From Arcobacter sp. F2176 (GTDB lineage: Bacteria > Campylobacterota > Campylobacteria > Campylobacterales > Arcobacteraceae), in NCBI RefSeq assembly GCF_004116465.1, contig NZ_PDJV01000023.1:1-39833 (forward strand): a DNA stretch of 39,833 bases, written 5' to 3'. Shown here in pieces: positions 2,486 to 37,741 of this stretch. Under the pieces are notes generated by a model. It searched no databases and was not told where the DNA came from. It saw only the letters and a program-made list of their open reading frames with translations. Each line of letters opens with the position of its first letter. Position 1 is the stretch's first letter. The translations under genes and the position numbers were made by a program.

Positions 2486-2559
2486 TTGTTTAGTAATATT
2501 TTTATTATTGTGGTATTCTTCTTTGAATTGGCAATATCAAAACTATTATATACTTTTAT

Positions 2560-5605: not shown

Positions 5606-6530
5606 TATTAACCTTTAAACTTATATGTTTTGTCTGTATTTTTATATATCTTATAAAGATTTTCTTTAATAGTTTACTATATATTAAAAGTTTTCCTAAA
5701 TAAGTACGTTTTTTTAATTTTATTGCTGAGTATGTACTATCCAAAAATTCTTTTATATAAGTATCATTTTTAGAAATTGATTCAGTCATTCTATCTATAT
5801 TATAAGTAAAATTTTCTTTTTGATAACACTGTTTTGTTCTTTTATCTTTAATATATAATTGGGTAATAACTCTATACTCTTTATAAAAGGTATCTTTATT
5901 AAAATTCCTATAGGTAACTTTTAATTCGAAAAAAAAAGGTTTTATTTTATTTGTAAAGTCTTTTATCAAATTAAGCTGTTTTTGATCAATTTCATAATGA
6001 GTAATAGGACAATTATTAATATAAATTGTTTCATTCTCTATAATTTTATTTAAATACATTCCTAAAATTGTTCGATGGTTTCCTTCTATACAAATATACT
6101 TTAACTTATTTTTTGTATCTTCGAATGACATAAAAGAAATGGGATTGACATGAGATTCAATTTCTTGAGAAAAATAGTATAAAGGTTTATCACATAAACA
6201 AATTAATGTACTACTTTTAAGTTTTCCTTCTAAATCTTTTAATAAATGTAAAGGTGTCTTATCTTTATAGCAATCTAAACGTGAACCTATAACTTTATCA
6301 AAATTAATATTATTATTTTTAGAAAAAGATTTAACTTTATAATTATCATTTAAATAACAATACTGTGAATAAGCTTCTTTAAAAGATTCAAAAGAATGCT
6401 TATCACTATCGTATAATGAAACTAAAAAAGATTTTGTTTCCATTATTTTAGAAGTTACATCTGTAAAACCTTTAGAATTTATACATTTAATCGCATCTAA
6501 AAAATATTCTTTATTAATATTTATATCCAT
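5598..6530 (-). CDS. ParB/sulfiredoxin-like protein, paralogue 1
   Basis: This 310-residue protein is a diverged paralogue of the 290-residue protein two genes downstream. Shared features are NPISFMSF (129-136) and YICIEGNHRTILGMYL with GNHRT at 150-154, the G-x-H-R loop of the ParB/sulfiredoxin fold. The region before it is helical and includes a three-cysteine stretch (residues 87, 111, 113) that may be fortuitous. The C-terminal 45 residues are very basic (many K and R, KKRTYLGK onward), which would suit nucleic-acid binding. The ATG directly follows the stop of the DUF6765-like gene (TAAATG), and its own end overlaps the HEPN gene by 8 bases. Substrate and activity are unknown. Confidence 0.5.
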   Translation of the reverse strand: MDININKEYFLDAIKCINSKGFTDVTSKIMETKSFLVSLYDSDKHSFESFKEAYSQYCYLNDNYKVKSFSKNNNINFDKVIGSRLDCYKDKTPLHLLKDLEGKLKSSTLICLCDKPLYYFSQEIESHVNPISFMSFEDTKNKLKYICIEGNHRTILGMYLNKIIENETIYINNCPITHYEIDQKQLNLIKDFTNKIKPFFFELKVTYRNFNKDTFYKEYRVITQLYIKDKRTKQCYQKENFTYNIDRMTESISKNDTYIKEFLDSTYSAIKLKKRTYLGKLLIYSKLLKKIFIRYIKIQTKHISLKVNND

Positions 6531-7595: not shown

Positions 7596-7761
7596 AATAT
7601 TATTCCTTTAGTACTAACATGTAATTTAATTGTATTAACAATATTATTAATATATAATTAATTTCAGTTAACATAGAATATATTACATTCTGTTATATTT
7701 TTACATAGTTATAATAAAAGATGTTAATATATCAGCAATTTATATTTTATAAGGAGTTTTA
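7596..7761. promoter_or_regulatory. Divergent promoter region between the two defence-like operons
   Basis: This 166-base spacer separates the leftward HEPN/ParB-like operon from the rightward MBL/E2-E1-JAB operon. A TATAAT box at 7710-7715 fits the plus-strand operon, with an AAGGAG Shine-Dalgarno at 7751-7756 ahead of a TTG start at 7762. For the minus strand, AT-rich TATA-like sequences lie around 7645-7665 and an AAAGGA lies next to the ATG at 7595. No clear operator palindrome is seen, but shared control from one short spacer is plausible. Confidence 0.5.
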
Positions 7762-8460
7762 TTGCCAAATTCATATACAGTTTCTGCATTATATATACCT
7801 GCATTTATTTTACTTATTCCTATATATTTAATATTTCAAATGCATGAAGTCAATATAATTGAATTATTTAATAAACTTGACACACTAAATTTAACATGGA
7901 ATGAAATATCTATTTCAAGTAATTTAGTTCTTTGGATTTTTCTTGCAAATTTAATAAGATACATTGGAAAGCATCAATTAGAAAATAAAATATTTAATTT
8001 TGGGAGAACATTCCCAACAACACAATTTTTAAAGAAAAAATCAAATATCCTTTCACAATCATTTAAAAATAGAATATTTGAACTAATTTATAACGATTTT
8101 AATTTTGATATATCTAAACTCAATAATATGAATAAAGATGAAGAAGAATTAGAATTAAAAGATTATGTAAGTCAAATTAGAATAAAAGTTGGTAAAGGTA
8201 CATTAACATTTAATCATAATGTACGATATGGTCAAATAAGAAATTTTATTGGTGGCTTATATATAATTTTACCAATATTAATTATTAATAGTATATACAT
8301 TTTTTATATTTCAAAATATGGACTTATTGAAAACACACTATTAGTTATAAATTTCTTATTTTTTCTTATTTTTTTATTAAAAAAAACTATCATTATAAAA
8401 TATGCAGATGAATATGCCAATATGCTTTTTAATGATTATATTAATTTACAAAGGAGTTAG
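7762..8460 (+). CDS. Four-helix membrane protein at head of ubiquitin-like operon
   Basis: The 232-residue protein has hydrophobic segments near residues 8-27, 50-67, 166-188 and 192-212, giving two N-terminal and two C-terminal membrane helices around a charged cytoplasmic or periplasmic middle of about 100 residues (rich in K, N, E). I do not recognise a family. The start is TTG with a good AAGGAG six bases upstream. The stop at 8458-8460 is followed after four bases by the MBL start, and the Shine-Dalgarno of the MBL lies inside its last codons, so the genes form one operon. In defence operons a small membrane protein is often the effector that perforates or signals at the membrane; that role is inference here. 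Confidence 0.55.
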   Translation: MPNSYTVSALYIPAFILLIPIYLIFQMHEVNIIELFNKLDTLNLTWNEISISSNLVLWIFLANLIRYIGKHQLENKIFNFGRTFPTTQFLKKKSNILSQSFKNRIFELIYNDFNFDISKLNNMNKDEEELELKDYVSQIRIKVGKGTLTFNHNVRYGQIRNFIGGLYIILPILIINSIYIFYISKYGLIENTLLVINFLFFLIFLLKKTIIIKYADEYANMLFNDYINLQRS

Positions 8461-8464
8461 AAGT

Positions 8465-9616
8465 ATGGCTTATTCAAAAATGACATTTTTACCTGTTGAC
8501 AATGGAAACATGGTCTTGATTAAATTAAATGATTCTAATAAAACTACGATTTTATATGACATGTATATTCGTGAAAAAGCATGTGATGAAAATGATGATA
8601 GTTATGATGTGTTAGGCTATTTGAAAAATAATTTAAACAAAGATGAAGAAGGTAGACTCTTTGTTGATGTTTTTATTTTGTCTCATCATGATGATGATCA
8701 TATTAGAGGTTTTCAGAATCATTTTCATACAGGTGATATTAAAGAATATATAAAAGACAGTGATAAAATTTACATTAAAGAGATTTGGGGTTCTTCAAGA
8801 TTTTTCAAACGGGCAGATAAATATAACACATTAGAAGCGAATGCTAAAGCATTTAATACAGAAATGAAAAGAAGATATAAACTTCATAAAGATAATAAAG
8901 TAATTCAAGAAGAAGGTAATCGTATTATTATTCTAGGAGAATCAGAAGATGACAAAACTGATCATGTTCAAGATATTGTATATAAAATAGGTGATACGAT
9001 TAAGAAATTAAATAATAAAGATATAAGTTCAAAAATTGAAATAGAACTATTAGGACCAATAGAGCAACAAGATGGTGAAGCTGAAGATCTTTATAAAAGA
9101 AAAAATAGAGGAAGTGTAGTATTACAATTAAATATCAAAGAAGGAAACTATACTAATCAAATTCTACTTACTGGTGATTCAGGAGCAGATGTTTTAGAGT
9201 ATATGCATGAAATTTATCCTCTATCTTCTTTTGAATACGATATTTTACAAGCACCACATCACTGTTCTAAATATTCTATGTATAATCAAATTGGGCAAGG
9301 AGAGAATAAAATATGTGAATTATCTGAAACTGCATTTGAGATACTTTCTCAAGCAAAAACAGGTGCTAAGATTATTGCAAGTTGTAGAGAGTTTGGTAAC
9401 GAAACTCCTCCTCATAATGAAGCAAAAGAAAAATATGAAGAGATTGTAGAGATTTCAAACTTCTTATACACTGCAGGGCATAAGAAAAAAGGCAAAGTAG
9501 AGCCAATTGAGTTAGAATTTACACAAGAAGGTCATAAAGAGCCTGTAGGTTTAACAAAAAGCAAAACTGCTGCTGCAACAATTGGTTCAGCAGGGGAAGC
9601 ACGTGGGCATGGTTAA
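8465..9616 (+). CDS. ComEC/Rec2-like metallo-beta-lactamase-fold hydrolase with Gly-ending tail
   Basis: The 383-residue protein carries ILSHHDDDHIRGF (H74, D76, D78, H79), the H-x-D-x-D-H metal site of ComEC-like metallo-beta-lactamase-fold proteins, then LLTGDSGADVLEYM (TGD 236-238) and LQAPHHCSKYS (H265, H266), in the same order as in ComEC. Such domains are usually phosphoesterases or nucleases acting on DNA. The last 20 residues form a small, flexible, Ala/Gly/Lys-rich tail ending ARGHG, with glycine as final residue, reminiscent of the C-terminus of ubiquitin-like modifiers. I chose ATG at 8465 (AAGGAG at 8450-8455 and conserved start of the fold) over an upstream in-frame ATG at 8402 that lies inside the preceding gene. 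Its end overlaps the E2-E1-JAB gene by 8 bases. It could be the enzyme-effector or the conjugated partner. Confidence 0.75.
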   Translation: MAYSKMTFLPVDNGNMVLIKLNDSNKTTILYDMYIREKACDENDDSYDVLGYLKNNLNKDEEGRLFVDVFILSHHDDDHIRGFQNHFHTGDIKEYIKDSDKIYIKEIWGSSRFFKRADKYNTLEANAKAFNTEMKRRYKLHKDNKVIQEEGNRIIILGESEDDKTDHVQDIVYKIGDTIKKLNNKDISSKIEIELLGPIEQQDGEAEDLYKRKNRGSVVLQLNIKEGNYTNQILLTGDSGADVLEYMHEIYPLSSFEYDILQAPHHCSKYSMYNQIGQGENKICELSETAFEILSQAKTGAKIIASCREFGNETPPHNEAKEKYEEIVEISNFLYTAGHKKKGKVEPIELEFTQEGHKEPVGLTKSKTAAATIGSAGEARGHG

Positions 9617-11717
9617 TATTAATTTTATTAACCTTGCATATAGCTATACTCATAAATCTGACCATATAAGTAGTGTTAGTGAAATCAAAATTGATGAAGC
9701 AAATAAAAAAGCTTCATTCACAGCAACCTTTGTTTTAAAATTTCCTAGTGCCATTACTGATAAAGAAACAAAATTTGGAGTCAGACAAAAGGAACCTGTC
9801 ACATTTGAGTTTTCTGAACAATTCCCATTAAAAGCTCCTTTTATTACATTAAGGAAAGATTTTCCAAGAGTATTTGAACATATTAATCCCAATAAAGATG
9901 TGGTAAATCCTTGTATTTATGAAGGCGATCTAAATGAGTTATTACAACAACCAGGTTTCTTTGATGAAGTACTTGACCAAATGGCTACATGGCTTGACAA
10001 AACAACTACTAATAGTTTATTTAATAGAGACCAAGGTTGGGAACCTATGCGAAGTGATGAACTTCATGGTATTATTGAGTATCCAACAAGTGTGGTTGAA
10101 GAATTTATAAATACTGGTATTAATATTGCGGGGATTTCATATAAGTTTAAAAAAGAAAAATTTAAAGTAACAATTGAAGAGTATAAGCCAGAAAGCTTAA
10201 ATAATACGGATACTTCAGCATTAATACCATTTATAAGTGAGGATATTGCAGAACAATATTATCCAAACTCTATAAATATTTATCAAGATTTAGTTGATTT
10301 CTGTAAAAAAGTTCATATTCCAGATTTAGATAAATACTTAGTTGAACATTACAAGGTTTTACAAAGACTTTCTTTTGTTTTTGTGACTCTGTTTGTTAAA
10401 CGACCTGCAAAAGTTATTGGAACAAACTTAGATTGTGAAATAATGAATTTTGCAATCAATGTAAAAACACTTAAAATAACAAAGACAGCAGCAAAAATAC
10501 AATATGGAGCAAAGGTTTATACATTAGGAACTATTGAATGCCCTTCAAAAAATTTATTGGCTAAATTTTCAGGACTTAGTACAAAAAATATCAAAAAAGG
10601 TATGACTATTACTCAAATTGGCTGTGGAAGTTTAGGTTCAAAGATAATTATGCATTTAGGACGTACAGGCATTACAGATAATATTAATTTAATCGATAAT
10701 GGGGTATTTAGTGCTCACAATCATGCACGCCACGCTTTGTGTAATACAAAATATTTATTATCTAATTATAAGAGTGAATTATTATTTGCAGCCTTAAGCG
10801 AAATGGGTTTAGAGAATGTAAGACATTCAGAAAATGATATTAAAGATATAAAAAAACTAATTAAAGAAAATCAAGTTTTAATCGACTCAACTGCTGATAT
10901 ATCTGTTAGAAACTTTTTAGTTGATGATGAAATTAAAAGTGAGGTTATCTATACTGTACTTCATAATTTAGGAACTGTTGGTTTGGTATTTATTGAAGGT
11001 AAAGACAGAAATGTGAGGATAGATGACATTGTTATAGAGTTTTATCTCTTATGTTTTCACAATGACACATTATCTCAGCTTATTTGTACGAGTAATGTAC
11101 AATATCAAACAGTTGGACAAGGATGTGGATCCTTAACCACCATTGTATCTGATGCAACCATTTCTCTTCAAGCTTCAGCTATGGCAAATATTATTCAAAA
11201 ACGATTAGAGAATGGTTCAAGTGAATTAGGAGAACTTTATATAGGAAGTATTGAAAATAATATAAACATAAATTGGCAATCATTAAACATTAATACTCCA
11301 ATGATATTACATGATGATACTTATGATATGCAAGTAAGAATTTCGCCAAGAGTTGTTAACAAAATTAAAGAAGAATCTAGCATACATTTTCCTAATGAGA
11401 CGGGAGGCGTACTTATTGGTCATATTTCTTTGATTAATAAAACTTTTACAATAGTTGAACTTATTGATGCACCAGCTGATAGTACTAGAAGTCCAGGGTA
11501 TTTTAAATTAGGTACATTAGGCTTACTTGAAAATATAGCTAACTATGAAGAAAGAACAAATGGACTATTAACCTATATTGGTACATGGCACAGTCATCCT
11601 CAAGGTGGTGGAGCTTCTAGAACTGATTTCAATATGAAAAATAAGTTAATTAAAGATAGAGAAGATTTTCCTTCTGTATGTCTTATTTATAGTCAAAAGA
11701 AGTTTTTAACTTATTAA
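9609..11717 (+). CDS. E2-E1-JAB single-chain ubiquitin-like conjugation protein (Cap2/Cap3-like fusion)
   Basis: The 702-residue protein combines three activities of ubiquitin-type systems. Residues 1-140 are E2/UBC-like: the HINP strand and NPCIYEG give the likely catalytic C102. A linker of unknown fold follows. Residues 330-530 are an E1/ThiF-like adenylation domain: TQIGCGSLGSKI nucleotide loop, LIDNG and the downstream Arg/His, with GQGCGSLTT (C506) as candidate E1 cysteine. Residues 575-702 are a JAB/MPN isopeptidase with E596 in NETGG, H661 and H663 in TWHSHP, and S670/D673, a complete JAMM site; its end is short after the last strand. E2 and E1 in one chain match Cap2 of type II CBASS, where the JAB Cap3 is separate. 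I chose ATG 9609 (AGGGGA 12 bases upstream) over TTG 9582. No separate ubiquitin-like gene is seen. Confidence 0.8.
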   Translation: MVNINFINLAYSYTHKSDHISSVSEIKIDEANKKASFTATFVLKFPSAITDKETKFGVRQKEPVTFEFSEQFPLKAPFITLRKDFPRVFEHINPNKDVVNPCIYEGDLNELLQQPGFFDEVLDQMATWLDKTTTNSLFNRDQGWEPMRSDELHGIIEYPTSVVEEFINTGINIAGISYKFKKEKFKVTIEEYKPESLNNTDTSALIPFISEDIAEQYYPNSINIYQDLVDFCKKVHIPDLDKYLVEHYKVLQRLSFVFVTLFVKRPAKVIGTNLDCEIMNFAINVKTLKITKTAAKIQYGAKVYTLGTIECPSKNLLAKFSGLSTKNIKKGMTITQIGCGSLGSKIIMHLGRTGITDNINLIDNGVFSAHNHARHALCNTKYLLSNYKSELLFAALSEMGLENVRHSENDIKDIKKLIKENQVLIDSTADISVRNFLVDDEIKSEVIYTVLHNLGTVGLVFIEGKDRNVRIDDIVIEFYLLCFHNDTLSQLICTSNVQYQTVGQGCGSLTTIVSDATISLQASAMANIIQKRLENGSSELGELYIGSIENNININWQSLNINTPMILHDDTYDMQVRISPRVVNKIKEESSIHFPNETGGVLIGHISLINKTFTIVELIDAPADSTRSPGYFKLGTLGLLENIANYEERTNGLLTYIGTWHSHPQGGGASRTDFNMKNKLIKDREDFPSVCLIYSQKKFLTY

Positions 11718-11777
11718 TATAAAAAGCAATATAATTATAAAGATGACAGCTTATAATTATTGATAGGAAAACAAAAA

Positions 11778-12620
11778 ATGTATTTTAAATTTAAGAGCAA
11801 AATACTTAAAGGACTAATTGGAAATAGTGTACATATTAATGATAAACTCATCGTTCATGGTTTCACTGCTGGAAAAGGGTTTGGAACTACTGCATTAACA
11901 TTTCTTGTAAAAAAAGCATTTAATATTCATAGATTTCCTTTGTGGGAAGACCGCCATTTTACGGAAGAATTTAATAGAAAAAATACTTATGCTACTCTTG
12001 ATAATATAATACAACATGATGAATTCATAAATTCTATTGATGAAATGGTTGAAGAAATTAAAGAGATATATACTACTACTCAAACTAAATTAAATATTCA
12101 ATATCCAAACCAAAGCCATGTAAAATTATATAGAAGTTTAGATCATGAGTATGGAGTTATTTTACTTCAAATGAAAGAAGAAGCTTCAAAAAACGGTAAT
12201 AGCTATATTGAGATTGGCACTGATATATTAAATAGTTTTACTGATAATCGTGGTAAATATGGGATGATTGCAAAAATTACAATTGATGTACCTAAAGAGG
12301 ATATATTATATTATGATGAACTCTTTAATGATATTATGGAATATGATGAGTTTGTTGTGATGAATAGAAGAATGGATGGGCTTTTAAAAATTCCAATTGA
12401 TTGTATAAGAAAAAGTGTCAATAGTTTTGATATTTATGATAATAGTTGGTATAGCAAACATATGCATCAAATATTTGGAGTAAAGAAGTATAATGGAAAA
12501 CATAACTTTATTAATTTATCATCGTGTATACATATAAAATTCTTTAAATTAAATACTAATAGAAAGAAAGATGGGTTCATAAAAAAAGTTTTAAAAAAAT
12601 TAGCACAATGTGGGACTTAA
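11778..12620 (+). CDS. ADP-ribosyltransferase-like protein, last gene of ubiquitin-like operon
   Basis: The 280-residue protein has an R-S-E-type ART motif order: KLYRSLD (R119), LNSFTDNRGKYG (S153-F-T155), a strand KITIDVPKEDIL, then MEYDEFVVMNR with E191 as the likely catalytic glutamate and E188 before it. The layout Arg strand, S-F-T strand, V-P-x-x-D-I-L, E-F-V-V resembles phage and toxin ARTs. The first 110 residues are an unassigned N-terminal region; the C-terminus is lysine-rich. I chose ATG 11778 with AGGAAA eight bases upstream over TTG 11760. The gap from the E2-E1-JAB stop is 60 bases and the strand is the same, so it is probably in the same operon. A cytoplasmic effector that modifies host or phage targets, or a modifier acting with the conjugation enzymes, is inference. 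Confidence 0.45.
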   Translation: MYFKFKSKILKGLIGNSVHINDKLIVHGFTAGKGFGTTALTFLVKKAFNIHRFPLWEDRHFTEEFNRKNTYATLDNIIQHDEFINSIDEMVEEIKEIYTTTQTKLNIQYPNQSHVKLYRSLDHEYGVILLQMKEEASKNGNSYIEIGTDILNSFTDNRGKYGMIAKITIDVPKEDILYYDELFNDIMEYDEFVVMNRRMDGLLKIPIDCIRKSVNSFDIYDNSWYSKHMHQIFGVKKYNGKHNFINLSSCIHIKFFKLNTNRKKDGFIKKVLKKLAQCGT

Positions 12621-12664
12621 AAAAATTAAAATCACCTTATCCCTAAATATAATCAAAAAAGCAA

Positions 12665-12708
12665 AGATTCATAATAATCAACATTTTGACATTTTATTTT
12701 ATGAATCT
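12665..12708. terminator. Inverted repeat at convergent gene ends
   Basis: AGATTCATAA at 12665-12674 and its exact complement TTATGAATCT at 12699-12708 flank a 24-base loop between the ends of the rightward operon and the leftward endonuclease I gene, whose stop codon is in the loop. The long loop makes it a weak terminator, but the position between convergent genes suits that role. Confidence 0.3.
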
Positions 12709-13434
12709 ATTCAAGTTTTCTAGAATAGATTCAATTCTCTTATTTCTCTCAATTTCCCATTCATCAACAGGATCTAGTTTATCCCAAGCATTAAAAAGTT
12801 GCCTCTCTTGTTTAGATATTTTCATCCCATAAGTATCTTCAAAATAAAAATAAGTTCTTGCTATATTACCTCTAATATCATCTTTAGGTTCAGCACGTCT
12901 TGCTTTAAAGTCCACTTCAAAATCTATATCTTTTCCATAGGCTCTTTTTTCACCTTCTATAATTCCATATCTAAAATTAGACCTATCAGCATTTAGTTCA
13001 CCAATAGCAGGTACTAGATTATGCATATCAGCTTCCATAAGTTTAAATTGCTTATTTACTTTAGAACAACACTTTCTTCCTTTATAGGCTTTACCATTAC
13101 TTTTAACACATTGAGAATCACCTTCTCTCCAACATGTAAACTGTCTTCCAAAGTTTTCAGCAGGAATCACATGTTCCCATTCAATTCTTCTTGCTCTTTT
13201 ATTTACTTTTCCAGATTTAGTATATTCATTTCTAGGAGTATAACCACATGATTGTCTATCAATCATATTGTTCTTATCTTTATAGCTATATTTACAATTA
13301 GCATAGAATGTAATTTGATGGTCTTTGTATATTTCTTTTAATAGTTTTTTTGATTTTGAAAAGGAATCAATTGTTGAGTTTGCTTGAGCAAAAAGGGAAA
13401 GTAATAATATTAAAATTAGTATATATTTTTTCAA
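12694..13434 (-). CDS. endA: Endonuclease I, secreted non-specific nuclease
   Basis: The 246-residue protein has a Sec signal peptide (MKKYILILILLLSLFAQA, cleavage near residue 18) and the features of the EndA/NucM/Vvn family: RRIEWEHVIPAENFGRQ with the beta-beta-alpha metal-finger E-H-V, and MEADMHNLVPAIGELNADRSN, whose Asn/Glu bind the metal. Six cysteines (in NCKY, SCGY, TCWRE, SQCVK, KCCSK) suit periplasmic disulfides. It would degrade DNA or RNA in the periplasm or outside the cell. Length and ends look intact. The segment for residues 186-235 is duplicated as a dead fragment at 3479-3626, so this gene borders the island. The upstream gene 13524 is divergent. It may be a resident gene at the island edge or cargo. 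Confidence 0.9.
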   Translation of the reverse strand: MKKYILILILLLSLFAQANSTIDSFSKSKKLLKEIYKDHQITFYANCKYSYKDKNNMIDRQSCGYTPRNEYTKSGKVNKRARRIEWEHVIPAENFGRQFTCWREGDSQCVKSNGKAYKGRKCCSKVNKQFKLMEADMHNLVPAIGELNADRSNFRYGIIEGEKRAYGKDIDFEVDFKARRAEPKDDIRGNIARTYFYFEDTYGMKISKQERQLFNAWDKLDPVDEWEIERNKRIESILENLNRFIK

Positions 13435-13474
13435 AGAGTACCTTTTAAGTAAAATAAATATAAAAAACTTGTAA

Positions 13475-13480
13475 TATAAT
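13475..13480 (+). promoter_or_regulatory. -10 box for the secreted C2-like gene
   Basis: TATAAT lies 43 bases ahead of the TTG start at 13524, with a Shine-Dalgarno-like AGGGA at about 13512-13517. No clear -35 element is visible, which is common for Campylobacterota vegetative promoters. Confidence 0.4.
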
Positions 13481-13523
13481 ATTAAAATAAATATAAATAA
13501 TCACATAAAACTAGGGAATTACT

Positions 13524-14174
13524 TTGAAAAGTTTCAAAATCAAGTATACATTATTCTTTATACTCATATTTAATATCTTAAATGCAAATGAAGAAATTAA
13601 ATACATAAATTTAACAGTTTTAGGTGCAGTTATTGCTCCAACTAAAATAGATAAAACTACCTGGGATAAAGGTGGTATAAAAATTGATAATGCTTCTTCA
13701 AATTTAATTAGTGAAATGCTAACTACTGGAATACCTGTTTCAAGTATTATGAATACAATTGGAAATAATGCTGCAAAAGGTACTGCTGCTCCTGATGTAA
13801 TTGGATATATTCAATTAATAGGTTCAAGTTTAAAAAATATATCAAATATAGCTTGGACACCTATTGTATTAGCTACTAAAAGTTATGCTTTATCAAAAGA
13901 TTCTTATACCCCAAGTTTTAATGCAGGGTATAAAAACTGGCCTTTATTTAAAGAAAATAGATTTAGAATAGTTCTATGGGATGCTGATTTATTTGATGAT
14001 GACCCAATTGCTACGGTTGAGTTGACATACAATGATGTAATGAATGCAATTAAAGTGGGGAAAACTACTTGGATTAATGTAGCAGAGCAAGGAAACAATC
14101 AACTTTTATTTATACAAATATCTGCCTCAGAGTCAAGTTCAAAGAAATCTTTTATTGATGGGTATAAATATTAA
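13524..14174 (+). CDS. Secreted C2-like protein
   Basis: The 216-residue protein starts with TTG and has a signal peptide (MKSFKIKYTLFFILIFNILNA, cleavage near residue 21). Residues 22-30 and 130-200 look like a C2-type beta sandwich: YINLTVLGAVIAP at the start and RIVLWDADLFDDDPIATVEL near residues 147-166, whose Asp cluster resembles calcium-binding loops of C2 domains. A helical, Gly/Ala-rich insertion lies between. It would act in the periplasm or outside, perhaps binding membrane lipid. The next frame, a broken membrane protein starting at ATG 14158, overlaps its end by 17 bases, suggesting a former two-gene unit. Function is not known. Confidence 0.4.
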   Translation: MKSFKIKYTLFFILIFNILNANEEIKYINLTVLGAVIAPTKIDKTTWDKGGIKIDNASSNLISEMLTTGIPVSSIMNTIGNNAAKGTAAPDVIGYIQLIGSSLKNISNIAWTPIVLATKSYALSKDSYTPSFNAGYKNWPLFKENRFRIVLWDADLFDDDPIATVELTYNDVMNAIKVGKTTWINVAEQGNNQLLFIQISASESSSKKSFIDGYKY

Positions 14175-14771
14175 TAATAATTCATCTAAAGAAGATACTT
14201 ATTCTCGTATCATGAAAAACGAATTAAACATCTATAAGAAACCTGACTCATTAATTAAGCTAAAGAAAAAAGAAATAGTCTTATATTTTTTATTGTTATT
14301 CCATTATTAGCTTTTATTGTTTTTCAGCATTTTAATGAGAAAGCAGGGAAAGAAGAAATTGTTAAGAATAAAGTTAATATACAGAATATGACTTTTAATT
14401 TACTTTTTAACAAGGGTTTATTAGTCCAAAACAATACAAGTTTTAAAATAACTTTTTCCTCCTCAGAATATAGATACATTGCTAATTATTTTGAAAAATT
14501 AAAAACTAATTACAATATCAAAACTAATATGAATTTTAACGCACTTGAAGAAACAAAAAATAATAGATTCAAATATGAAATAGATGGAAACTTTTGGTAT
14601 TTAGATATTTCTGAAAATAAAGAAATATTCCTTAAAAATATTTATTCTTTAAAAAAAGTAAAAGAAGGATATGAAATAAATAAAAGTATAGGTTATCTTA
14701 TTTTACTAATAGAAGAAAGAAAATTCTCTAATTCCGCAGATATATATTATTCACTTTTTGGTAAAAAATAG
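14158..14771 (+). pseudogene. Frameshifted single-pass membrane protein
   Basis: A frame beginning at ATG 14158 (or 14212) encodes MGINI... then KKPDSLIKLKKKEIVLYF and hits a stop at 14308-14310. From about 14283 a different frame continues with FIVIPLLAFIVFQHF, a membrane helix, then NEKAGKEEIVKNKVNIQNM and a soluble domain to the stop at 14771. Joining them by a one-base shift in the A- or T-run around 14265-14290 gives a sensible protein: short basic cytoplasmic tail, one membrane helix, external domain of about 140 residues. The downstream part alone (ATG 14388, 127 residues) lacks the helix. I read it as a recent frameshift, a sequencing error in a homopolymer, or programmed slippage. 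No family recognised. Confidence 0.6.
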
Positions 14772-14863
14772 ATATTTATGATGAAGATATAAAAGTAAAA
14801 ATACAAAATAAAAAGAATTCAAAAGAATAAACTATTTAAAATAAAATTATATAGTTATAAACT

Positions 14864-14897
14864 TCTCTTTACATATTAATGTTTTAATGTAAAGAAA
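14864..14897. terminator. Hairpin after the broken membrane protein gene
   Basis: CTTTACAT at 14867-14874 pairs exactly with ATGTAAAG at 14887-14894 around a 12-base loop, and flanking bases extend the stem. It lies 93 bases after the stop at 14771, between convergent units, and could end the plus-strand transcript. Confidence 0.35.
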
Positions 14898-14923
14898 ATC
14901 AATTGTCAAATTATATACTTAAC

Positions 14924-14946
14924 AAAAACCTTTATATAGGGCTTTT
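14924..14946 (-). terminator. Probable terminator of the recombinase operon
   Basis: Read on the minus strand, AAAAGCCC, TATATAAA, GGTTTTT forms a short stem (A4, CC with GG, T4 with one bulge) ending in a T-run, about 38 bases after the stop of the 508-residue recombinase. This has the shape of an intrinsic terminator. Confidence 0.45.
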
Positions 14947-14950
14947 GACT

Positions 14951-14968
14951 ACCCGTTATATAACGGGT
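14951..14968. repeat. Perfect 18-bp palindrome ACCCGTTATATAACGGGT
   Basis: ACCCGTTATATAACGGGT is fully self-complementary with no loop, which suits a dimeric protein operator or recombinase site better than a terminator. It lies 16 bases beyond the stop codon of the 508-residue recombinase. No copy was noticed near the other end of the operon (21,013-21,090). Confidence 0.55.
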
Positions 14969-14984
14969 AATTTTAATATTTGTA

Positions 14985-16511
14985 TCATTTACTTTCCAAA
15001 AAACCTCTGGAAATTGCATAGGATAATGGATTAAATAACTTTTCTTGATAATAAAATCCAAATTCATCTTCTGCAAAATTTCTCATTTTATTAATAAAAC
15101 TTGTCGTAACTTCAAAGTTATTATCTATTTTTTGGCTAAAACCCCTATCATCAATTATTAATCCTGTTTTTAAACCATATGATAAGAAATCAAAATTTTT
15201 TGGTATTTCTTCTTTAAGTTTCTTCTTTACAATTTCTTCTAGAATATATTGTGCTGAAGAAGATTTTTTAAAACTTTCTAGTGATATAGGCGAAAAATTA
15301 GAACCATAATGCCCACCAAAATTTGTTAATAATATTGCTACCCTTATATATATTAATACAGTTTCTTCCGATGCATGTCCTAAAAATTTTGCAAGAATCT
15401 TTAATAATTGAATATTTGGAGTTATCCCGACATCAACAATATTAATTCCTTGTGATTCATAAAAATCTAAAACAATCCACGTTGCAAAAGTATGTCTCAT
15501 CCAATGTGGCGTAATACTTTTCTCTTTTCGTCCTATTATATTAGAAGCCTTTTTAAAAGCATACATAACATTTCCATAATTAATTTTTTTACCTTTAGTT
15601 GTAAACCAAAATATTTTATTTATTTCACTAGATCCTAAATTATTTTTTACATACACAGTTCTTCTACGTATATATTCTCTAGAAATATATTTAATATGAA
15701 GTTTCTTTAAAAATCTAATTGGAAACGTTGCAATTTTTATATCTCCTCCTTTTGCAATATACTTTATGTCAACTCGTTGATAATCTTCTTTCCCACCATT
15801 AATATAACCAAAAAGTCCATCAAAATCTTTTTTAACTATTTCTAAAGCTGCTGAAATTCTCAAACCACTTTCCACCATTAATTCTGCTATTAATGCATAT
15901 ACTATATCAATTTTTTCAAGTTCATTATAAAATGAATTATATTCTTTCTTACTTATTGCGTTATAACTATAAACTGTAGGTGAATTTCTAACTTTAATTG
16001 CCCATGAGTCAACATAATTTCTCTCATTTTGATTATTTGAAATATGAGAAAGAAGCTTGTTTTTATAATAAAACTTTGGAACTTTTTTGATTGTCATATT
16101 TATTTTTATTCTATATCCAATTTTTTTCATATAATTAAAAAAACTAAACCAAGTGTCTAGTTTTCTGTTCATTGTATTATTCTTTATTGGTTTATAATTA
16201 AACTTACTTTCTGATACTTTTTCATATCCATCCCAACAAAGCATTCCATATTTTATTTGTTCAATATGATACTCTTCCGCACAAGCCCATGTTATACCCA
16301 TATCATCTAAGTGTCGGTATAATTCCATGATTTCAATTGCTTTACCTCGGTGTGTTGTCCTTCCTTGAATACTATTATTACGTCCACCATACTTAGATTC
16401 AAAAACTAAAAACTTTAATGATGGTATGTCAATTTGATTATTTACAAATAAAACACTGATATTTCTATTTTTAATATTTGGATTTGAAATTTCTTTTACT
16501 CTAAATTTCAT
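14985..16511 (-). CDS. Tyrosine recombinase 3 of the trio (complete catalytic set)
   Basis: The 508-residue protein has all tyrosine-recombinase residues: ESGLRISA (R218), a K in the beta hairpin (K254), HWMRHTFA (H336, R339), LGHAS (H379) and YIR (Y388). It carries a long N-terminal arm/core-binding part and about 110 residues after the tyrosine, longer than simple phage integrases. As the last gene of the operon it starts 11 bases inside the 157-residue gene. In Tn554-type modules two large tyrosine recombinases plus a small protein carry out insertion; here a third, degenerate recombinase-like protein is also present. This one is probably a DNA-cutting member. Confidence 0.85.
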   Translation of the reverse strand: MKFRVKEISNPNIKNRNISVLFVNNQIDIPSLKFLVFESKYGGRNNSIQGRTTHRGKAIEIMELYRHLDDMGITWACAEEYHIEQIKYGMLCWDGYEKVSESKFNYKPIKNNTMNRKLDTWFSFFNYMKKIGYRIKINMTIKKVPKFYYKNKLLSHISNNQNERNYVDSWAIKVRNSPTVYSYNAISKKEYNSFYNELEKIDIVYALIAELMVESGLRISAALEIVKKDFDGLFGYINGGKEDYQRVDIKYIAKGGDIKIATFPIRFLKKLHIKYISREYIRRRTVYVKNNLGSSEINKIFWFTTKGKKINYGNVMYAFKKASNIIGRKEKSITPHWMRHTFATWIVLDFYESQGINIVDVGITPNIQLLKILAKFLGHASEETVLIYIRVAILLTNFGGHYGSNFSPISLESFKKSSSAQYILEEIVKKKLKEEIPKNFDFLSYGLKTGLIIDDRGFSQKIDNNFEVTTSFINKMRNFAEDEFGFYYQEKLFNPLSYAISRGFLESK

Positions 16512-16974
16512 AGTTATTTCTTTTTATTCTATCTTCTAAATTTTCTATTTGTTCTTCCAAACTACTTATTTTTTCATCTTTTTTAACTAATTCGTTATTT
16601 AAATTTATTTCTAAATTAGCAAAATAAATTAATTTAGATAATACTGATTCTAATTCTGCTTCCAATATCTTTATCTTATCATATAGTTTTTGATCTGTGA
16701 AATTTTTATGTTTTTTGAAATCTATTTTAAAGTCATCAATTTCTTTTTTTATTTCTTTAAACTCTGATGTCTTTGGATTTTTCAAAGTTTGTACACTTAT
16801 ATCATTACTAAAGTTTATGTCAGTAGTTTTTACTAATTCATTTGCTAATATCGTTGCAGTTTTTCGAGATAATACATTTTTTTTTAAACTATATGAATTT
16901 TCTTTTAATTTTACAATAGCTTCTTTAAGAAATTTTATCTTATTTTCTTTTTCTATACTTGTTAATCTTGCCAT
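16501..16974 (-). CDS. Small coiled-coil protein, TnpC-like
   Basis: The 157-residue protein begins with a short helical, basic part (SRKTATILANELVKTTDI) and ends with a long coiled coil (residues about 95-155, LEAELESVLSKL... LEEQIENLEDRI). It sits between two tyrosine recombinases, 10 bases after the 630-residue gene and overlapping the 508-residue gene by 11. Size, position and helical N-terminus are similar to TnpC of Tn554, an accessory protein affecting insertion orientation; similar short proteins are grouped in DUF6262. The assignment rests on context and general character, not on a catalytic motif. Confidence 0.55.
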   Translation of the reverse strand: MARLTSIEKENKIKFLKEAIVKLKENSYSLKKNVLSRKTATILANELVKTTDINFSNDISVQTLKNPKTSEFKEIKKEIDDFKIDFKKHKNFTDQKLYDKIKILEAELESVLSKLIYFANLEINLNNELVKKDEKISSLEEQIENLEDRIKRNNYEI

Positions 16975-16984
16975 TAATAATCCT

Positions 16985-18877
16985 TTAGTTATCTTTAGGT
17001 ATGATTTTTTTTAAATTAAAACCATTTGCTTCAATAAATAATTTATTTGATTTTAATCTATCATACAATTCAGCTTCCAATGAAATATAATTAATTTTAT
17101 CAATTTGTTCTTCTGTAAATACTGCATTAGGACAATCTAATGCTCTACATCTTGAAGGATATACCTTCTCTCCAAAAAAGTTTTCTAAATCTAAATCTCG
17201 TTGACAGGCCATTCTGTCCTTATTAGAAAAGTCATGAAAACAAAAACTAATGGGAGTTTGTAGTATTACTAATTTCCCAGAATCTATCGATTTTTTAAAT
17301 TCAAAATTTAAATAATCAGATAGCTCATCAATGTAACTTCCTTTAAACATATAATTTTTATATATATTATTTCCATTTTTATTATATAACTTTTTGTTAT
17401 TTTGGACTTCTTTAATTATTAACTCTGAAATTTCATTAGATTGAATCAATTCTAAGTCATCAATTGCTTTTTTTATATTTTTATTAAATTGAGATAAATA
17501 CATCAATGACATATTTTTGGATTTATGAGATAGAATCATTCTTGAAAGTTCAAGTCCATCACTTTCACTAGCATATGCAACTATAAAAGCCATAGAATGT
17601 CGAAACATATGTGGAGAAATATTTCTTATGTTTAATTTTTTACAAAAATAATTTATTCCTGAATATATAACATTTGTTCTCGGTTCATTTGAAATTTCAC
17701 CGACTATTAAAAAGTCATTATTTGGAAATAAAATTTCCTGAAGTTCACTTAAACCATTTATTGCATATTTTGTTATAGCAGGAATTGGTATATCAAAAGT
17801 ATCTCCATTCTCATAATGCGAAGTTTTAAAAACTATTTTTTTCATCATTAAAAATTCAGATTCTTCAAATATAGGAAATCTTTCTAATATTGAAAATTCT
17901 CCTACTCTCATCGCAGTAGTAAATAAAACAATAATATAACAAGAAGCTTTATACATTCTAATTTCATGCATTAATAATTGTTGCAAATTTTTATTATCAT
18001 AAAAAGAATTTATATTTGAGAATATTCTATTTTTTAATATATCTTTATCAATTTTTTTACATTCATTTTTAATATTATTTAATGATGGATTGCTAAATTC
18101 ATGATTATCTAAAATAATATTCTCTATTATAAAAATGTTTCTTGAATTATATTTTTGTCCACTATGAAATTTTAATTTTTTTACTTTTTTAGTTAATTCT
18201 GATACATATAGTATGTCATCTTTGTAATATTCAACATATTCTATAGCTTTAGATAATACTTGTTTTAAAATTGGTAAATCTAAAGCTTTAAAGAAATAAT
18301 CTATTTGATATGGCTCAGACATTTTCTTTTTATTAATAAGCTCCAATATTTTGATAAACTGTGGATTTTCTTCAACAAATGAAAAATCATATCTCATAAA
18401 ATATGGTAACAATTTATTTAATTTATTCCAAAACCTTAATTTTGACAATTTTGAAAATGCTGTTCCTGCAGTTATTTCTTCTCTTTCAACTTTTTTGTGA
18501 TATTCATTAATTATATTTTCTAAATCAACTTTTCTAATTTCTTTTAAAGAATTAATTTCACCACAATTTTTTTCAATTTCTTTTAAAATAACTCTTAAAT
18601 TGTAAAAGAAATTACTTTTTCCACTATTATTTAATATTCCATCTGGTAACCCTTGAAATTTTAGATAAATAAATAGCTTTAATAATGTCCTAAAAAATGA
18701 TGTCTCCATCTTAAATTTATGCTCAATTTTAATTTGGCCATTTTTTAAATATGTAAATGAATTATCTTTAAACTTAGAATCAAGGCATAAATTGAATTTT
18801 TGTTCTTTTAAAAGGTTTTCTACTTCATTTATATTTATACAATATATTAATTTATCAATTACATTATTATATTTCAT
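16985..18877 (-). CDS. Tyrosine recombinase 2 of the trio (TnpB-like)
   Basis: The 630-residue protein has TTAMRVGEFS (R324), PHMFRHSMAF (H423, R426), LSHKSKNMSLMYL (H451, Y460), so the catalytic set of tyrosine recombinases is recognisable. After the tyrosine come about 170 residues with a Cys/His cluster (CFH, ACQ, SRCRALDC) that looks like a zinc-binding domain. The length equals the usual TnpB of Tn554 (about 630 residues). Its ATG overlaps the stop of the 711-residue gene (TAATG), so translation is coupled. It is a likely catalytic partner of the 508-residue recombinase. Confidence 0.8.
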   Translation of the reverse strand: MKYNNVIDKLIYCININEVENLLKEQKFNLCLDSKFKDNSFTYLKNGQIKIEHKFKMETSFFRTLLKLFIYLKFQGLPDGILNNSGKSNFFYNLRVILKEIEKNCGEINSLKEIRKVDLENIINEYHKKVEREEITAGTAFSKLSKLRFWNKLNKLLPYFMRYDFSFVEENPQFIKILELINKKKMSEPYQIDYFFKALDLPILKQVLSKAIEYVEYYKDDILYVSELTKKVKKLKFHSGQKYNSRNIFIIENIILDNHEFSNPSLNNIKNECKKIDKDILKNRIFSNINSFYDNKNLQQLLMHEIRMYKASCYIIVLFTTAMRVGEFSILERFPIFEESEFLMMKKIVFKTSHYENGDTFDIPIPAITKYAINGLSELQEILFPNNDFLIVGEISNEPRTNVIYSGINYFCKKLNIRNISPHMFRHSMAFIVAYASESDGLELSRMILSHKSKNMSLMYLSQFNKNIKKAIDDLELIQSNEISELIIKEVQNNKKLYNKNGNNIYKNYMFKGSYIDELSDYLNFEFKKSIDSGKLVILQTPISFCFHDFSNKDRMACQRDLDLENFFGEKVYPSRCRALDCPNAVFTEEQIDKINYISLEAELYDRLKSNKLFIEANGFNLKKIIPKDN

Positions 18878-21012
18878 TATGCACCCTCTTGTTTTAACTT
18901 TACTTTTTTATAAAACCTACATCTAACAACATCATAATACTTACTAGATTCTTTTTTTGCAAAGATTTGTTCTTCATTAGTAAATCCATTAAAAACACTA
19001 TATGCTATAGTCAATGAATTAGCAAATTCTTTCTCAAAATCTGATTTCTTAATAAAATCTATTTCTTTTTCTTCCATATAATCAATCCAAGCTTTAATAA
19101 CTGGCCCATGAATTTTGGGAATTATATGAGCCTGAGAACAGTTTAAACAGTTAAACCAATCGATACATCTTTCATCTTCTTTTAAATTGATATACTCTGA
19201 ATAATCAGGCTCTTGAGGATTTTTACAATCACTAATTAACCCATTAAATAATTTATCTAAAGGACTTGAAGATATTGTTCCTTTAAAAATTCCAATAATC
19301 TCATCTTTAATTTTTGCCACTTTAAAATTTCTAGATTCTTTCCATTCTGTTAAATTCTCATAGTGGTTAATTGTCATACTTTTATCTTTATGATTCATTA
19401 GATGTTGCCGTACATATTCGTTTAAACCTTGTAGATAATTTTTATAGTTATAATAGGGACGTATTTCAGAGAAATTAATTTTATTTATTCGATTACCTTC
19501 ATTATCAAAAATTTCATATTTTGTAAAAAAATCATTAAGGCTTTTAGTAGGACTTTTCCAATTAGATTTATCAAACTGTATTATTGGATTAAAATTTGAT
19601 TGTATTAATGTGTTGGAACGGGTATAATACTGAAAAAATTTACTTGAATTTGAATTATTATAGAGTTCTTTCATATGTTCTAAATAACTTTTTATAAATT
19701 TTATTTGAGAATGTTCTTTTCTGATTAAAGTATCATAATAAGAATTTGATCTAATTTTGCTTGCACGAATTATGTATGCTGATGGTGTTTCAATTCCGAT
19801 AGTATATGTATTATCTATTTTTTTTACTTCCCAATTTTTTAATACTTCAGGATTAATTCCTTCTCTTATCAATATAAACAAGAATAGCACATATATTTCT
19901 TCTCTAGAAACATAAAATAATTTATTTAAATTAGGTGGTAATTTTTTTCTTTTTAGAATTTTCATGTATAATTCTCTAAAACTATTCAATTTATGTCCAA
20001 TTAAATTAAATTTATTATTTAATTTATTATCATATGGAAAATTTGGAAATAATGTTATATGCCAAAAATAATACATTTTTTCATTTTTAAATGAGATATC
20101 AACTCCCTTTTTCGACAATTTTAAAAGTCTTTTATGTTCTTTTTCATGTTTAATATCTTTATAATAATATTTGCTACCCTTTTTTAACTTCCAAATCTTT
20201 AAATCTATTTTATACAAACATTTAGAAATTTTATTAACTTGAAATTTTATTGAATTTAATTGATTACTCTTATAATAAGTATGTGCCAAATTTTCTAAAG
20301 AAAATAAAATAAAATTTTTATATTCTTTTTTCCATTCAACGACTTTTTTAAATATTTCTAAGTTTTCATTTAATTCTTTTTCACAAAAATAGTCTAATTG
20401 AAAAATGATACTAGAAGGAATTCCTTTTCTAGGTAAACTATGTTGTGAATTGTTTTTGAAACTTGACATAAGGTATGTATCACTAAACTTAGAAATATTA
20501 TTGAAAAATCTATTCAAATTTCTAATATTACTTTTAAAAAGATTCTTAGTATTATAAAATTGATCATAAATTTTATTTTGTAATAAATAATCAATTTTAT
20601 TAAAATCTTCGAATTTTATATTAATACTTTTTAATATTTTCAAAAATAATTGAAAACCTTTGATATCCATTGATGTAGAACTTTTTGATGTAAGAGTAGG
20701 ATTAGATTTTTCTATATAAAAAAAGAGCATTTTTTTATACTTACTAAATTCAGTAGTAAAAAAATCACTCTCTTTAGCTATTGAAGAAAAACTTCTATAT
20801 ATTATTTTCCTATTTAATCTTTCTTCTTGATATTCTTTAAATTCTTTATATGAAATATACACTCTACCATCATGAGACATTACATAAGAGCCTTTATGTT
20901 TGTCTCTTAATAAATCATCTTTTAAATCATAAAATTTTTCATTTAAATTTTCTCCACTTTGAAAAACCTTTAAATTAGATTCTAAATGATTTAACTTTTT
21001 TAATTTTTTCAT
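18877..21012 (-). CDS. Degenerate recombinase-like protein, first gene of the trio
   Basis: The 711-residue protein is the promoter-proximal gene. It looks like a decayed or specialised tyrosine recombinase: an IREGINPEVL segment at the place of the first Arg, no H-x-x-R (the corresponding part reads EIRPYYNYK), but HLMNHKDKSMTINHY near residue 540 resembles the H ... Y end. Following it is a Cys-rich stretch (DCKNPQ ... CIDWFNCLNCSQAH) likely to bind zinc, as in the 630-residue protein. It is probably a structural or DNA-binding subunit rather than a cutting enzyme. It lies next to the junction with the interrupted secretin gene. The stop overlaps the next start. Confidence 0.6.
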   Translation of the reverse strand: MKKLKKLNHLESNLKVFQSGENLNEKFYDLKDDLLRDKHKGSYVMSHDGRVYISYKEFKEYQEERLNRKIIYRSFSSIAKESDFFTTEFSKYKKMLFFYIEKSNPTLTSKSSTSMDIKGFQLFLKILKSINIKFEDFNKIDYLLQNKIYDQFYNTKNLFKSNIRNLNRFFNNISKFSDTYLMSSFKNNSQHSLPRKGIPSSIIFQLDYFCEKELNENLEIFKKVVEWKKEYKNFILFSLENLAHTYYKSNQLNSIKFQVNKISKCLYKIDLKIWKLKKGSKYYYKDIKHEKEHKRLLKLSKKGVDISFKNEKMYYFWHITLFPNFPYDNKLNNKFNLIGHKLNSFRELYMKILKRKKLPPNLNKLFYVSREEIYVLFLFILIREGINPEVLKNWEVKKIDNTYTIGIETPSAYIIRASKIRSNSYYDTLIRKEHSQIKFIKSYLEHMKELYNNSNSSKFFQYYTRSNTLIQSNFNPIIQFDKSNWKSPTKSLNDFFTKYEIFDNEGNRINKINFSEIRPYYNYKNYLQGLNEYVRQHLMNHKDKSMTINHYENLTEWKESRNFKVAKIKDEIIGIFKGTISSSPLDKLFNGLISDCKNPQEPDYSEYINLKEDERCIDWFNCLNCSQAHIIPKIHGPVIKAWIDYMEEKEIDFIKKSDFEKEFANSLTIAYSVFNGFTNEEQIFAKKESSKYYDVVRCRFYKKVKLKQEGA

Positions 21013-21043
21013 ATAATAAACCTTTTCAATTATATTTTTATAT

Positions 21044-21070
21044 ATTATAGAAAAAAAATTAATTATACAA
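21044..21070 (-). promoter_or_regulatory. Promoter of the recombinase operon
   Basis: On the minus strand TTGTAT (plus-strand 21065-21070) and TATAAT (21044-21049) are separated by 15 bases, with an AAAAGG Shine-Dalgarno just ahead of the ATG at 21012. The promoter lies within about 40 bases of the presumed element end, as in Tn554-type elements. Confidence 0.45.
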
Positions 21071-21075
21071 ATTTA

Positions 21076-21095
21076 TATTTTTTAAGAAAAAGTAT
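21076..21095. other. Presumed junction of mobile element and secretin gene
   Basis: The secretin frame runs into a stop at 21082-21084 right after TTNTFS, in the middle of the secretin domain. AT-rich non-coding DNA and then the recombinase promoter follow to the left. The exact boundary and any core sequence cannot be fixed without the other end or an empty site. Confidence 0.5.
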
Positions 21096-21966
21096 TTGTT
21101 GTCTGTCCTGTTTTGAAAGATTTTGTTTCACCAACATAAATAGATGATTCTTTATTATTTATACATAAAATTGAGGGCTCTGATATTACATCTATTGCTT
21201 GGTTTTGTTTTAGGAAATTTATTGTGGCCCCTAAATTTAATCCCTTTGATAAAGAATTTAAGTCAAAACCAAAAGTTGAAAATTCACTAAAATTAATTGC
21301 AATATTTTTTAAACTATTAAAAGAACTAGAAAAAGTACTAAGATTTGTAGAACTATATTTATTAAATCCATTTAACCCATATTCTAGTCCCACTTCTTTT
21401 GTCTTAGTTTCACTTATTTCAACAATTTTTGCTTTTATATAAATTTGAGGATATGAAATATCAATTTTTTTGATAAATCTTTTTATATTTTCTGTATCAC
21501 TTTTACTTCCTACTACTATAATAGAATTTGTATCATTTTCTACTGTCATAATTGGATTTATATTTGATTTCTTATTTGAATAAATGGTATTTAAAACTTT
21601 TAATATATTTTGAGCTTCAAGATTTTGAATAGGTATTATTTCTACTTTTTTTTCTTGTTGATTCAATGGTCTATTTTTATTTTCAATTTTGAAAATAGTT
21701 CCTTCATCTTTTAAAACATAACCTTTTTTCAATAAAGTAAATTTTAAAAGTTCTAAAAGCTTTTGCTTTTTTATTGATTTATTTGATACAAAATCAACTT
21801 TTCCTTCAATCTTATCTAAATAAAAAATATTTTTATTCAATTGCTTAGAAGTGATTTTTATAAACTCTTCAATGGATAAATTTTTAAAATTTATATTTAT
21901 ATACTCGTTATTGTTTGCCTTTAACCCCATTGTAAAAATCAATAAAATAAAAATTATAATCTTCAA
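21082..21966 (-). pseudogene. Truncated secretin (GspD/PilQ/MshL type), 3' half missing
   Basis: The 294-residue product has a signal peptide (MKIIIFILLIFTMGLKA), an STN/N0 domain (residues 22-95, FKNLSIEEFIKI to FKIEN), an N1-type ring domain (105-175, IPIQNLEAQNILKVL to NDTNSIIVVGS) and the beginning of the secretin beta domain (AKIVEISETKTKEVGLEYG ... SEPSILCINNKESSIYVGE). It stops at GQTTNTFS, whereas secretins go on for about 150-250 more residues including the gate and the final membrane strands. It cannot make a pore. The cut coincides with the recombinase module, so I read it as insertion. The start is TTG with an AAAGG Shine-Dalgarno; the gene lies 61 bases after yigZ on the same strand. 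Confidence 0.8.
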
Positions 21967-37693: not shown

Positions 37694-37741
37694 TAATTTT
37701 CTTTATTTTTATTATGCTGATTATAGCCAATTGCAAATAAA

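Follow-up and report, generated by a model that had tools for sequence, protein, structure and literature searches.

An element with a four-gene recombinase operon in the ctsD homologue of Arcobacter sp. F2176, and its possible role against natural transformation

The question whether mobile elements evolve to survive transformation is still open, with few model systems to address it, and natural competence is known in the bacterial group to which Arcobacter sp. F2176 (Arcobacteraceae) belongs. In this strain, an operon of recombinase-like genes abuts a secretin gene that breaks off within its conserved domain. So did a mobile element enter this gene, and could it matter to such an element which gene it breaks? 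The window, that is, the whole stretch of DNA analyzed here, is the entire contig NZ_PDJV01000023.1 (39,833 nt; hereafter C23) of GCF_004116465.1, a fragmented assembly of 98 contigs.

The split secretin gene

The sequence-only reading had proposed that a recombinase-driven element is inserted in the secretin gene, and had suggested seeking the intact gene in relatives and the missing 3' half beyond the window. Both were found, and the insertion, as first observed, is confirmed. The secretin ORF (21966-21082) breaks off at position 41 of the 169 positions of the Secretin profile, and the 3' half, covering profile positions 44-168, is located on another contig, at C7:178066-178422, 88 bases short of the contig end. 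Intact secretin genes, that is, empty sites, are present in two congeners, G001 (468 aa) and G002, and the two halves adjoin when mapped on either of them. The earlier claim that the gene stops exactly at the boundary, in mid-domain, holds with respect to the domain and requires correction with respect to the stop: the in-frame stop codon (21084-21082) is supplied by the element and lies inside it, the element boundary being 21090/21091. The features involved are:

1..21090, no strand: portion of the element in the window (from the empty sites in G001 and G002 and the target 3' half on C7)
21082..21966, minus strand: 5' part of the target, a secretin and ctsD homologue (secretin domains from Pfam and NCBIfam; 88% identity to the intact gene of G001)
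C7:178423-178510: far end of the element, 88 bases (from the target 3' half on C7)

Thus, the window holds most of one element end, and the element, at least 21 kb in size, continues past its left edge. The middle of the element is absent from the assembly and C23 and C7 are not joined; neither of these contig ends has another convincing match elsewhere in the host genome.

Sequence comparison identifies the target, which the earlier reading did not recognize, as an orphan secretin homologous to Campylobacter ctsD, the competence pore without which DNA is not taken up. Homologues of ctsD and ctsE are listed for A. butzleri, the closest matches of the target secretin and of the ATPase are 1.3-1.7 kb apart in ten g23 genomes, and a C. 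jejuni mutant without ctsD/pilQ shows no DNA uptake. Contig C13 still carries another secretin, full-length and accompanied by its own GspE-like ATPase. Because this pair remains, the predicted loss in the host is that of DNA uptake rather than that of a type II or type IV pathway at large, so that of the previously claimed loss of a type II or IV pilus-like path, only the broken secretin stands. We infer that the element is mobile and that the host has lost competence.

The operon and the cargo

The operon consists of four minus-strand ORFs arranged head to tail and joined by overlaps or by a gap of about 10 bp:

18877..21012, minus strand: gene A, 711-aa recombinase-like protein without the first catalytic Arg; its Cys-rich C-terminal part is conserved (family alignment A1, Pseudomonas plasmid homologue)
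16985..18877, minus strand: gene B, large tyrosine recombinase of 630 aa, catalytic residues complete (Phage_integrase, family alignment)
16501..16974, minus strand: gene C, coiled-coil-like protein of 157 aa, occupying the position of Srap/GinD/TnpC (position conserved in the family)
14985..16511, minus strand: gene D, tyrosine recombinase of 508 aa, catalytic residues complete (Phage_integrase, family alignment)
14950..14969, no strand: perfect palindrome TACCCGTTATATAACGGGTA, probable terminator, directly after gene D (sequence)

Both B and D hit the Phage_integrase profile, B narrowly missing the cut-off, and the residues R-K-H-R-H-Y are invariant among the six family members compared. In gene A, the first catalytic Arg is replaced by Asn (Asn387), which is invariant in the A proteins. 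Gene A has no match in Pfam or NCBIfam, its tie to recombinases runs via a Pseudomonas homologue, and AlphaFold, with three sequences as input, yielded a mean pLDDT of 39.6. Nothing related to gene A turned up in viral contigs, where the matches of gene D were short and distant. The inward-reading operon of three recombinase-like proteins and a TnpC-like one, as initially described, is a four-gene operon indeed, but one in which the small protein lacks detectable TnpC/DUF6262 homology. Given that the operon lies downstream of, and is codirectional with, the broken gene, the promoter of the target may help express it.

Two cargo loci deserve attention:

12694..13434, minus strand: endonuclease I of the Dns/EndA family, its N-terminus resembling a signal peptide (Pfam Endonuclease_1 1.1e-37; PDB endonuclease I 1e-54)
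8402..11717, plus strand: metallo-beta-lactamase-fold protein and E2-E1-JAB fusion, a probable anti-phage operon (PADLOC, Pfam)

The endonuclease, which appears to be of the secreted type, also matches the NCBIfam deoxyribonuclease I model at 1.1e-63, below the model cut-off. A transformation block in Campylobacter is linked to nucleases of this kind (CJIE DNases; PMC10893306). No such gene was found in the parts of the other family elements that were examined.

Targets of the family and the predicted loss of transformation

The A-B-C-D order recurs in eight further loci of Campylobacterota, besides a ninth that is a remnant, and on Pseudomonas plasmids. The secretin gene, taken at first to be the preferred site, is the site in this strain, and no fewer than seven other genes serve as targets in the relatives. 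Integration is site-specific, since elements whose proteins are 43-51% identical occupy the same gpx nucleotide in G249 and G273, where the flanking proteins are 90-93% identical; a single strict integration-site consensus was not found, and the cores vary between target groups. Three targets of the relatives, ctsE, comM and comFC, are transformation genes which, together with ctsD, make up four of the eight distinct targets. The other four, namely gpx, hsdM, the 3' end of mutS and a CPXCG-like ORF, are not, so that the notion that all family members reside in competence genes had to be rejected. The targeting of transformation genes apparently has at least two origins.

What could these targets have in common for the element? 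The splitting of ctsD, ctsE, comM and comFC suggests that the elements protect themselves by stopping host DNA exchange. Natural transformation is a route by which a cell can swap an inserted element for the empty site, and this route would be blocked; in the present element, the broken ctsD homologue and the endonuclease I cargo may combine two means to this end. One family appears to strike DNA uptake and processing at four distinct points: the outer-membrane pore, the traffic ATPase, ComFC and ComM. That half of the distinct targets lie outside transformation counts against such a role, as does the second secretin on C13, and we regard a selected anti-transformation function of the element as evenly balanced between right and wrong. 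An even chance is also what we would give to the full proposal, namely, that these elements represent an undescribed four-gene recombinase family of Campylobacterota that was selected to enter ctsD, ctsE, comM and comFC, with at least one member adding a secreted-type endonuclease I, preventing removal via uptake of empty-site DNA.

The principal alternative, which in our estimate falls somewhat short of an even chance, is that the insertions into competence genes are incidental, the recombinases recognizing conserved coding motifs and the loss of transformation being an unselected side effect. The four targets outside transformation, several of which are hit inside highly conserved motifs, are compatible with this possibility, as are the reported insertions of GInts in an ABC-transporter gene and ssb (PMC5385486). 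However, four transformation genes among eight distinct targets have a binomial probability of 3e-7 to 4e-6, under assumed gene counts, and the four integration sites show no evident common sequence. Furthermore, the sister elements of G296 and G531 disrupt different genes of one pathway, and the endonuclease I carried in the window likewise argues for selection.

The element ends and the known systems

The operon end carries a core, arm-type repeats and a spacer:

21091..21096, minus strand: AATACT, the 6-bp spacer where the operon end meets the target (same sequence as in the empty site)
21069..21090, minus strand: core motif, TTTTCTTAAAAA... (direct comparison; G249 arranged alike)
21059..21074, minus strand: arm-type repeat 1, weak copy, ..GTATAATTAA (exact copies at that position in G249 and G277, weaker in others)
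21021..21039, minus strand: arm-type repeat 2, weak copy

The window, G277 and G249 have this architecture of core, arms and 6-bp spacer in common; in each, the start of the last arm precedes the core end by exactly 26 bases. The core of the far end (C7:178423-178435) and that of the operon end are imperfect inverted repeats, and the spacer at the C7 junction is AACTCT. Comparison of the window and G277 with intact relatives, and of G249 with its inferred original site, reveals a 6-bp footprint: the operon end has the target's own 6 bp whereas the far end has foreign ones. Although the arm copies at the operon end of the window are weak, we are in all likelihood dealing with an integrated element in the ctsD homologue that follows this 6-bp footprint rule. 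The products of genes A-D would assemble into a complex for recombination: two tyrosine recombinases that are catalytic, one protein without the catalytic Arg, and a small protein of coiled-coil type. Together they would pair both core motifs, aided by the arm-type repeats at each end, and exchange strands with the target across the 6-bp spacer. The 6 bp of the target would thereby come to the operon end, and the 6 bp from the earlier site to the far end, as under the footprint rule of SEs and Tn554.

A Tn554-family transposon, as originally suggested, would share this rule with its short brought-in spacer (6-7 bp), the site preference, and the combination of one ordinary and one large catalytic recombinase with a small protein. 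However, Tn554 has the order tnpA-tnpB-tnpC whereas here four genes run A-B-C-D, with no Tn554 counterpart of the additional recombinase-like gene A; six C proteins gave no match to Pfam DUF6262 at E values up to 0.1, and hhalign of gene C with a Tn554-type TnpC protein reached a probability of 3.5%. Gene content, order and gene C lead us to reject membership, and this origin is very improbable. Hardly credible is an assembly chimera, in which unrelated DNA was fused to the secretin in C23 and a second break occurred by chance at the C7 end: a 98-contig genome and a mere 88 foreign bases on C7 might invite it, but the core and arm repeats in these bases, spaced at 26 and 60-61 bases, are the same as in the far ends of G249, G147 and G277, in which both element ends lie on a single contig, and the two halves restore the G002 empty site, the 6-bp spacer excepted.

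Among the known systems closest in design to the integrated element are the SEs (SE-6945, SE-6283), which combine ordinary and large catalytic recombinases with a defective recombinase-like protein and a small coiled-coil-type protein, and share the 6-bp spacer, the target copy at the operon end, the far-end footprint and the imperfect inverted cores (PMC10214605). The SE order intA-tfp-intB-srap (ordinary-defective-large-small) is rotated here to defective-large-small-ordinary, and SEs have been reported solely from Gammaproteobacteria (PMC10214605), whereas the present host belongs to Campylobacterota. In comparison with SE-6283, gene D scores 97% with IntA and gene B 94% with IntB, but controls of the Xer type attain 92% and 84% over shorter segments. 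Genes A and C showed no sequence match to Tfp and Srap of SE-6945 and SE-6283 (probabilities below 1%); gene A weakly matches (50%) a protein encoded on pF061_1 by a locus with the SE order. The GInts (ginABCD), compared by description rather than by protein sequence, likewise have three recombinase-type proteins and a small one, an operon at one end, varied cargo, a GinC without the first Arg, as in gene A, and an exchange staggered by ~6 nt, but their small gene comes last rather than third (PMC5385486). RIT elements encode three catalytic recombinases of 315-410 aa, in contrast to the 711, 630 and 508 aa found here, with A lacking the first Arg. For GmtX, GmtY and GmtZ of the gamma-mobile-trio, there was no NCBIfam match at E values up to 1 in a library that may not include those models. 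The recombinase quartet of the Pseudomonas plasmids pPUV-7 and p727-IMP, whose annotation does not go beyond integrases, has the same A-B-C-D order; its A, B and D are homologous to those of the window by profile comparison, whereas its gene C has an unrelated sequence of twice the length. With the present family, transposition of the SE/GInt/Tn554 kind is widened to a new gene order and a new phylum, with well-defined ends.

In functional terms, the closest parallels are transformation-disabling elements which break DNA-uptake genes, with insertions in comM, comYC, comFA and comK (PMC4774983), or carry a blocking DNase (CJIE; PMC10893306), as may be the case here; the targets named in the passages considered do not include ctsD and ctsE. 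Most of these known cases are prophages and islands for which one integrase is named, whereas the present element may unite the two means.

The split secretin gene and its element

The positions that the sequence-only reading gave for four open reading frames and a truncated secretin gene turned out to be right; all lie on the minus strand:

Gene A, recombinase-like protein, 711 aa
Gene B, large recombinase, 630 aa
Gene C, coiled-coil-like protein, 157 aa
Gene D, recombinase, 508 aa
21082..21966 (-), 5' part of the secretin gene

The window is contig C23, one of 98 of a 3.27-Mb genome, and in its gene the Secretin profile breaks off at position 41-42 of 169; positions 44-168 are found on another contig of this genome (C7:178066-178422), within a frame of 188 codons, 88 bases short of the contig end. 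The 3' half that the earlier reading had proposed to look for elsewhere in the genome is thus present, and the gene whose intact version it had proposed to seek in relatives is uninterrupted in two genomes of the same genus (G001 and G002), neither of which yielded the operon in searches with gene A. Both halves align consecutively on the intact gene, whose flanking genes G001 also keeps in the same order. Given the 3' half on C7 and the intact gene in both relatives, neither outcome named beforehand as counting against an insertion was seen, and we consider the insertion into the secretin gene and the anatomy of the element well supported.

The DNA from the operon to the contig end carries, as cargo, a gene for endonuclease I, which begins with a signal-peptide-like stretch, contains the EHVIPA region and is presumably of the same family as the DNases of the Campylobacter jejuni CJIE elements. 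Those of CJIE1, 2 and 4 are linked to transformation loss (PMC10893306). The cargo further includes an operon that is picked up by anti-phage models:

8402-12620, probable ubiquitin-like anti-phage operon: adjacent genes for a metallo-beta-lactamase-fold protein, an E2-E1-JAB fusion and a protein that matches DRAT (ADP-ribosyltransferase) weakly

Outside the element, genes for a ketosynthase-like protein, an ABC transporter and an acyl-CoA ligase-like protein follow one another (29960-39779); judged from translations only, they resemble a cluster for aryl-polyene or fatty-acid-type biosynthesis.

Ends and site specificity

On the operon strand, the junction beside gene A (21090/21091) reads ACAACA-AATACT-TTTTCTTAAAAAATATAAATTTGTATAATT, the far junction on C7 reads AATTATACTTTTTCCTTTTTTTAGAAAA-AACTCT-TCAGGAACAAC, and the empty site in G002 reads ACAACA-AATACT-TCAGGAACAAC, from which it follows that the operon end has the target's own 6 bp and that those at the far end are foreign. 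The same spacer rule holds in G277, compared with the intact gene in G188 (CAACAA and CTATTT), and at the split glutathione peroxidase (gpx) gene of G249 (GGCTTC and GATAGT), where the original site is deduced from the intact gpx genes of relatives and the gpx halves are 35.8 kb apart. Apparent nitrous-oxide reductase and cytochrome bc1 genes lie between these halves (L075, L076; G249:C1:336001-368000); they may be cargo, or the region may be rearranged.

At the operon end, a repeat near AATTATACTTTTTT is found in inverted orientation, ~20 and ~65 bases in, and the far end has direct copies of it at about -162, -117, -92 and -31 (G249, G147). G277 has the 25- and 61-base steps as well, the C7 end has one of 60 bases, and in the window's element, G277 and G249 the start of the last copy lies exactly 26 bases ahead of the core end. 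Three exact copies were observed at each far end (G277, G249) against 0.03-0.05 expected from shuffled ends. The operon-end copies are weak in the window's element, and the G296-G531 pair has a repeat of different appearance. On the operon strand the arm repeats at 21021-21074 read GTATAAT; the -10 box of the operon may therefore coincide in part with recombinase binding sites.

In 10 of 10 insertions the operon and the target gene point the same way, and the 5' part of the target adjoins the operon end. G249 and G273 carry insertions at the same gpx nucleotide; their A-D proteins share only 43-51% identity, and three flanking host proteins share 90-93%. This shared site reflects either independent insertions or replacement of one element by the other, and both scenarios require site-specific integration.

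Distribution, targets and transformation

Searches with gene A located the operon in G277, G311, G424 and G443, that is, with the window, in 5 of 104 Arcobacteraceae, and further operons in G249, G273, G296 and G531. A gene A remnant in G147 (L047 8935-9177), with an IS3-type transposase and a split gpx next to it, marks a decayed element with both ends still recognisable. The A-B-C-D order is constant among complete operons; of two Aliarcobacter plasmids, pM830MA carries a copy that has the full order and is partly broken, and pAFAEC a gene D homologue. The catalytic residues are all kept in B and D, and in the gene A protein Asn replaces the first Arg, with Arg518, His541 and Tyr551 kept. 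We infer that the element is mobile and that A-D divide the labour.

The intact secretin has 468 aa (G001); the ATPase whose gene is split in G277 has 451 aa in its intact form in G188, where a 394-aa GspF-type protein comes next. In a survey of Aliarcobacter butzleri, the homologues of Campylobacter competence genes are ctsD (478 aa), ctsE (453 aa) and a pilG-like gene (396 aa) (PMC8308473). Since size, family and neighbours fit, we take the two targets as ctsD and ctsE homologues, an assignment by homology and size and not by direct alignment with the named A. butzleri loci. In ten genomes of genus g23 the closest matches of secretin and ATPase share a strand and are separated by 1.3-1.7 kb, as expected for ctsD-ctsP-ctsX-ctsE. 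C. jejuni without ctsD/pilQ takes up no DNA at all (PMC10046745), and the host here would have lost competence; an intact ctsE homologue remains in its genome (C21:17624-18952), as does another secretin, on C13. G531 has a broken comFC (match of residues 1-159 to the solved Helicobacter pylori ComFC, 4.9e-25), and a short frame containing the TTG loop lies ~10.5 kb away; ComFC is essential for transformation (PMC9005727). The broken gene of G296 belongs to the ComM/YifB family, its contig ending before the other half; the role of ComM in transformation is known from other species (PMC4774983) and is assumed for these bacteria. The other targets are:

gpx, in three genomes (G249, G273, G147)
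hsdM, in G424
mutS homologue, 3' end, in G311
small ORF with CPxC-type motifs (family assigned by eye), in G443

Transformation genes thus make up 4 of 8 distinct targets, with a binomial chance of 3e-7 to 4e-6 if 20-40 such genes are assumed among 2500, in a test carried out once the data were known. In none of three trees (A, B, D) do the elements that target competence genes group as a single clade, and well-supported branches require at least two changes for A and for B, and one for D. A selected role of such elements in disabling transformation is a plausible and testable proposition, which we regard as evenly balanced.

Comparison with known elements

Large Pseudomonas plasmids share the A-B-C-D order, with homologous A, B and D:

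L032 4918-12001 and L033 3077-10160, A-B-C-D-like recombinase quartets, annotated only as site-specific integrases

IntB and IntA of SE-6945 and SE-6283 (plasmid pSEA1) match B and D somewhat better than Xer-type controls do, by a margin too small to call, and A and C gave no match to Tfp and Srap of these elements. The Pseudomonas aeruginosa plasmid pF061_1 (L078 6431-11932) carries a recombinase quartet in SE order, whose second protein matches gene A weakly and is alone among the SE-ordered ones in doing so. Most economically, the element can be described as related to SEs and GInts and as having its genes in a rotated order.
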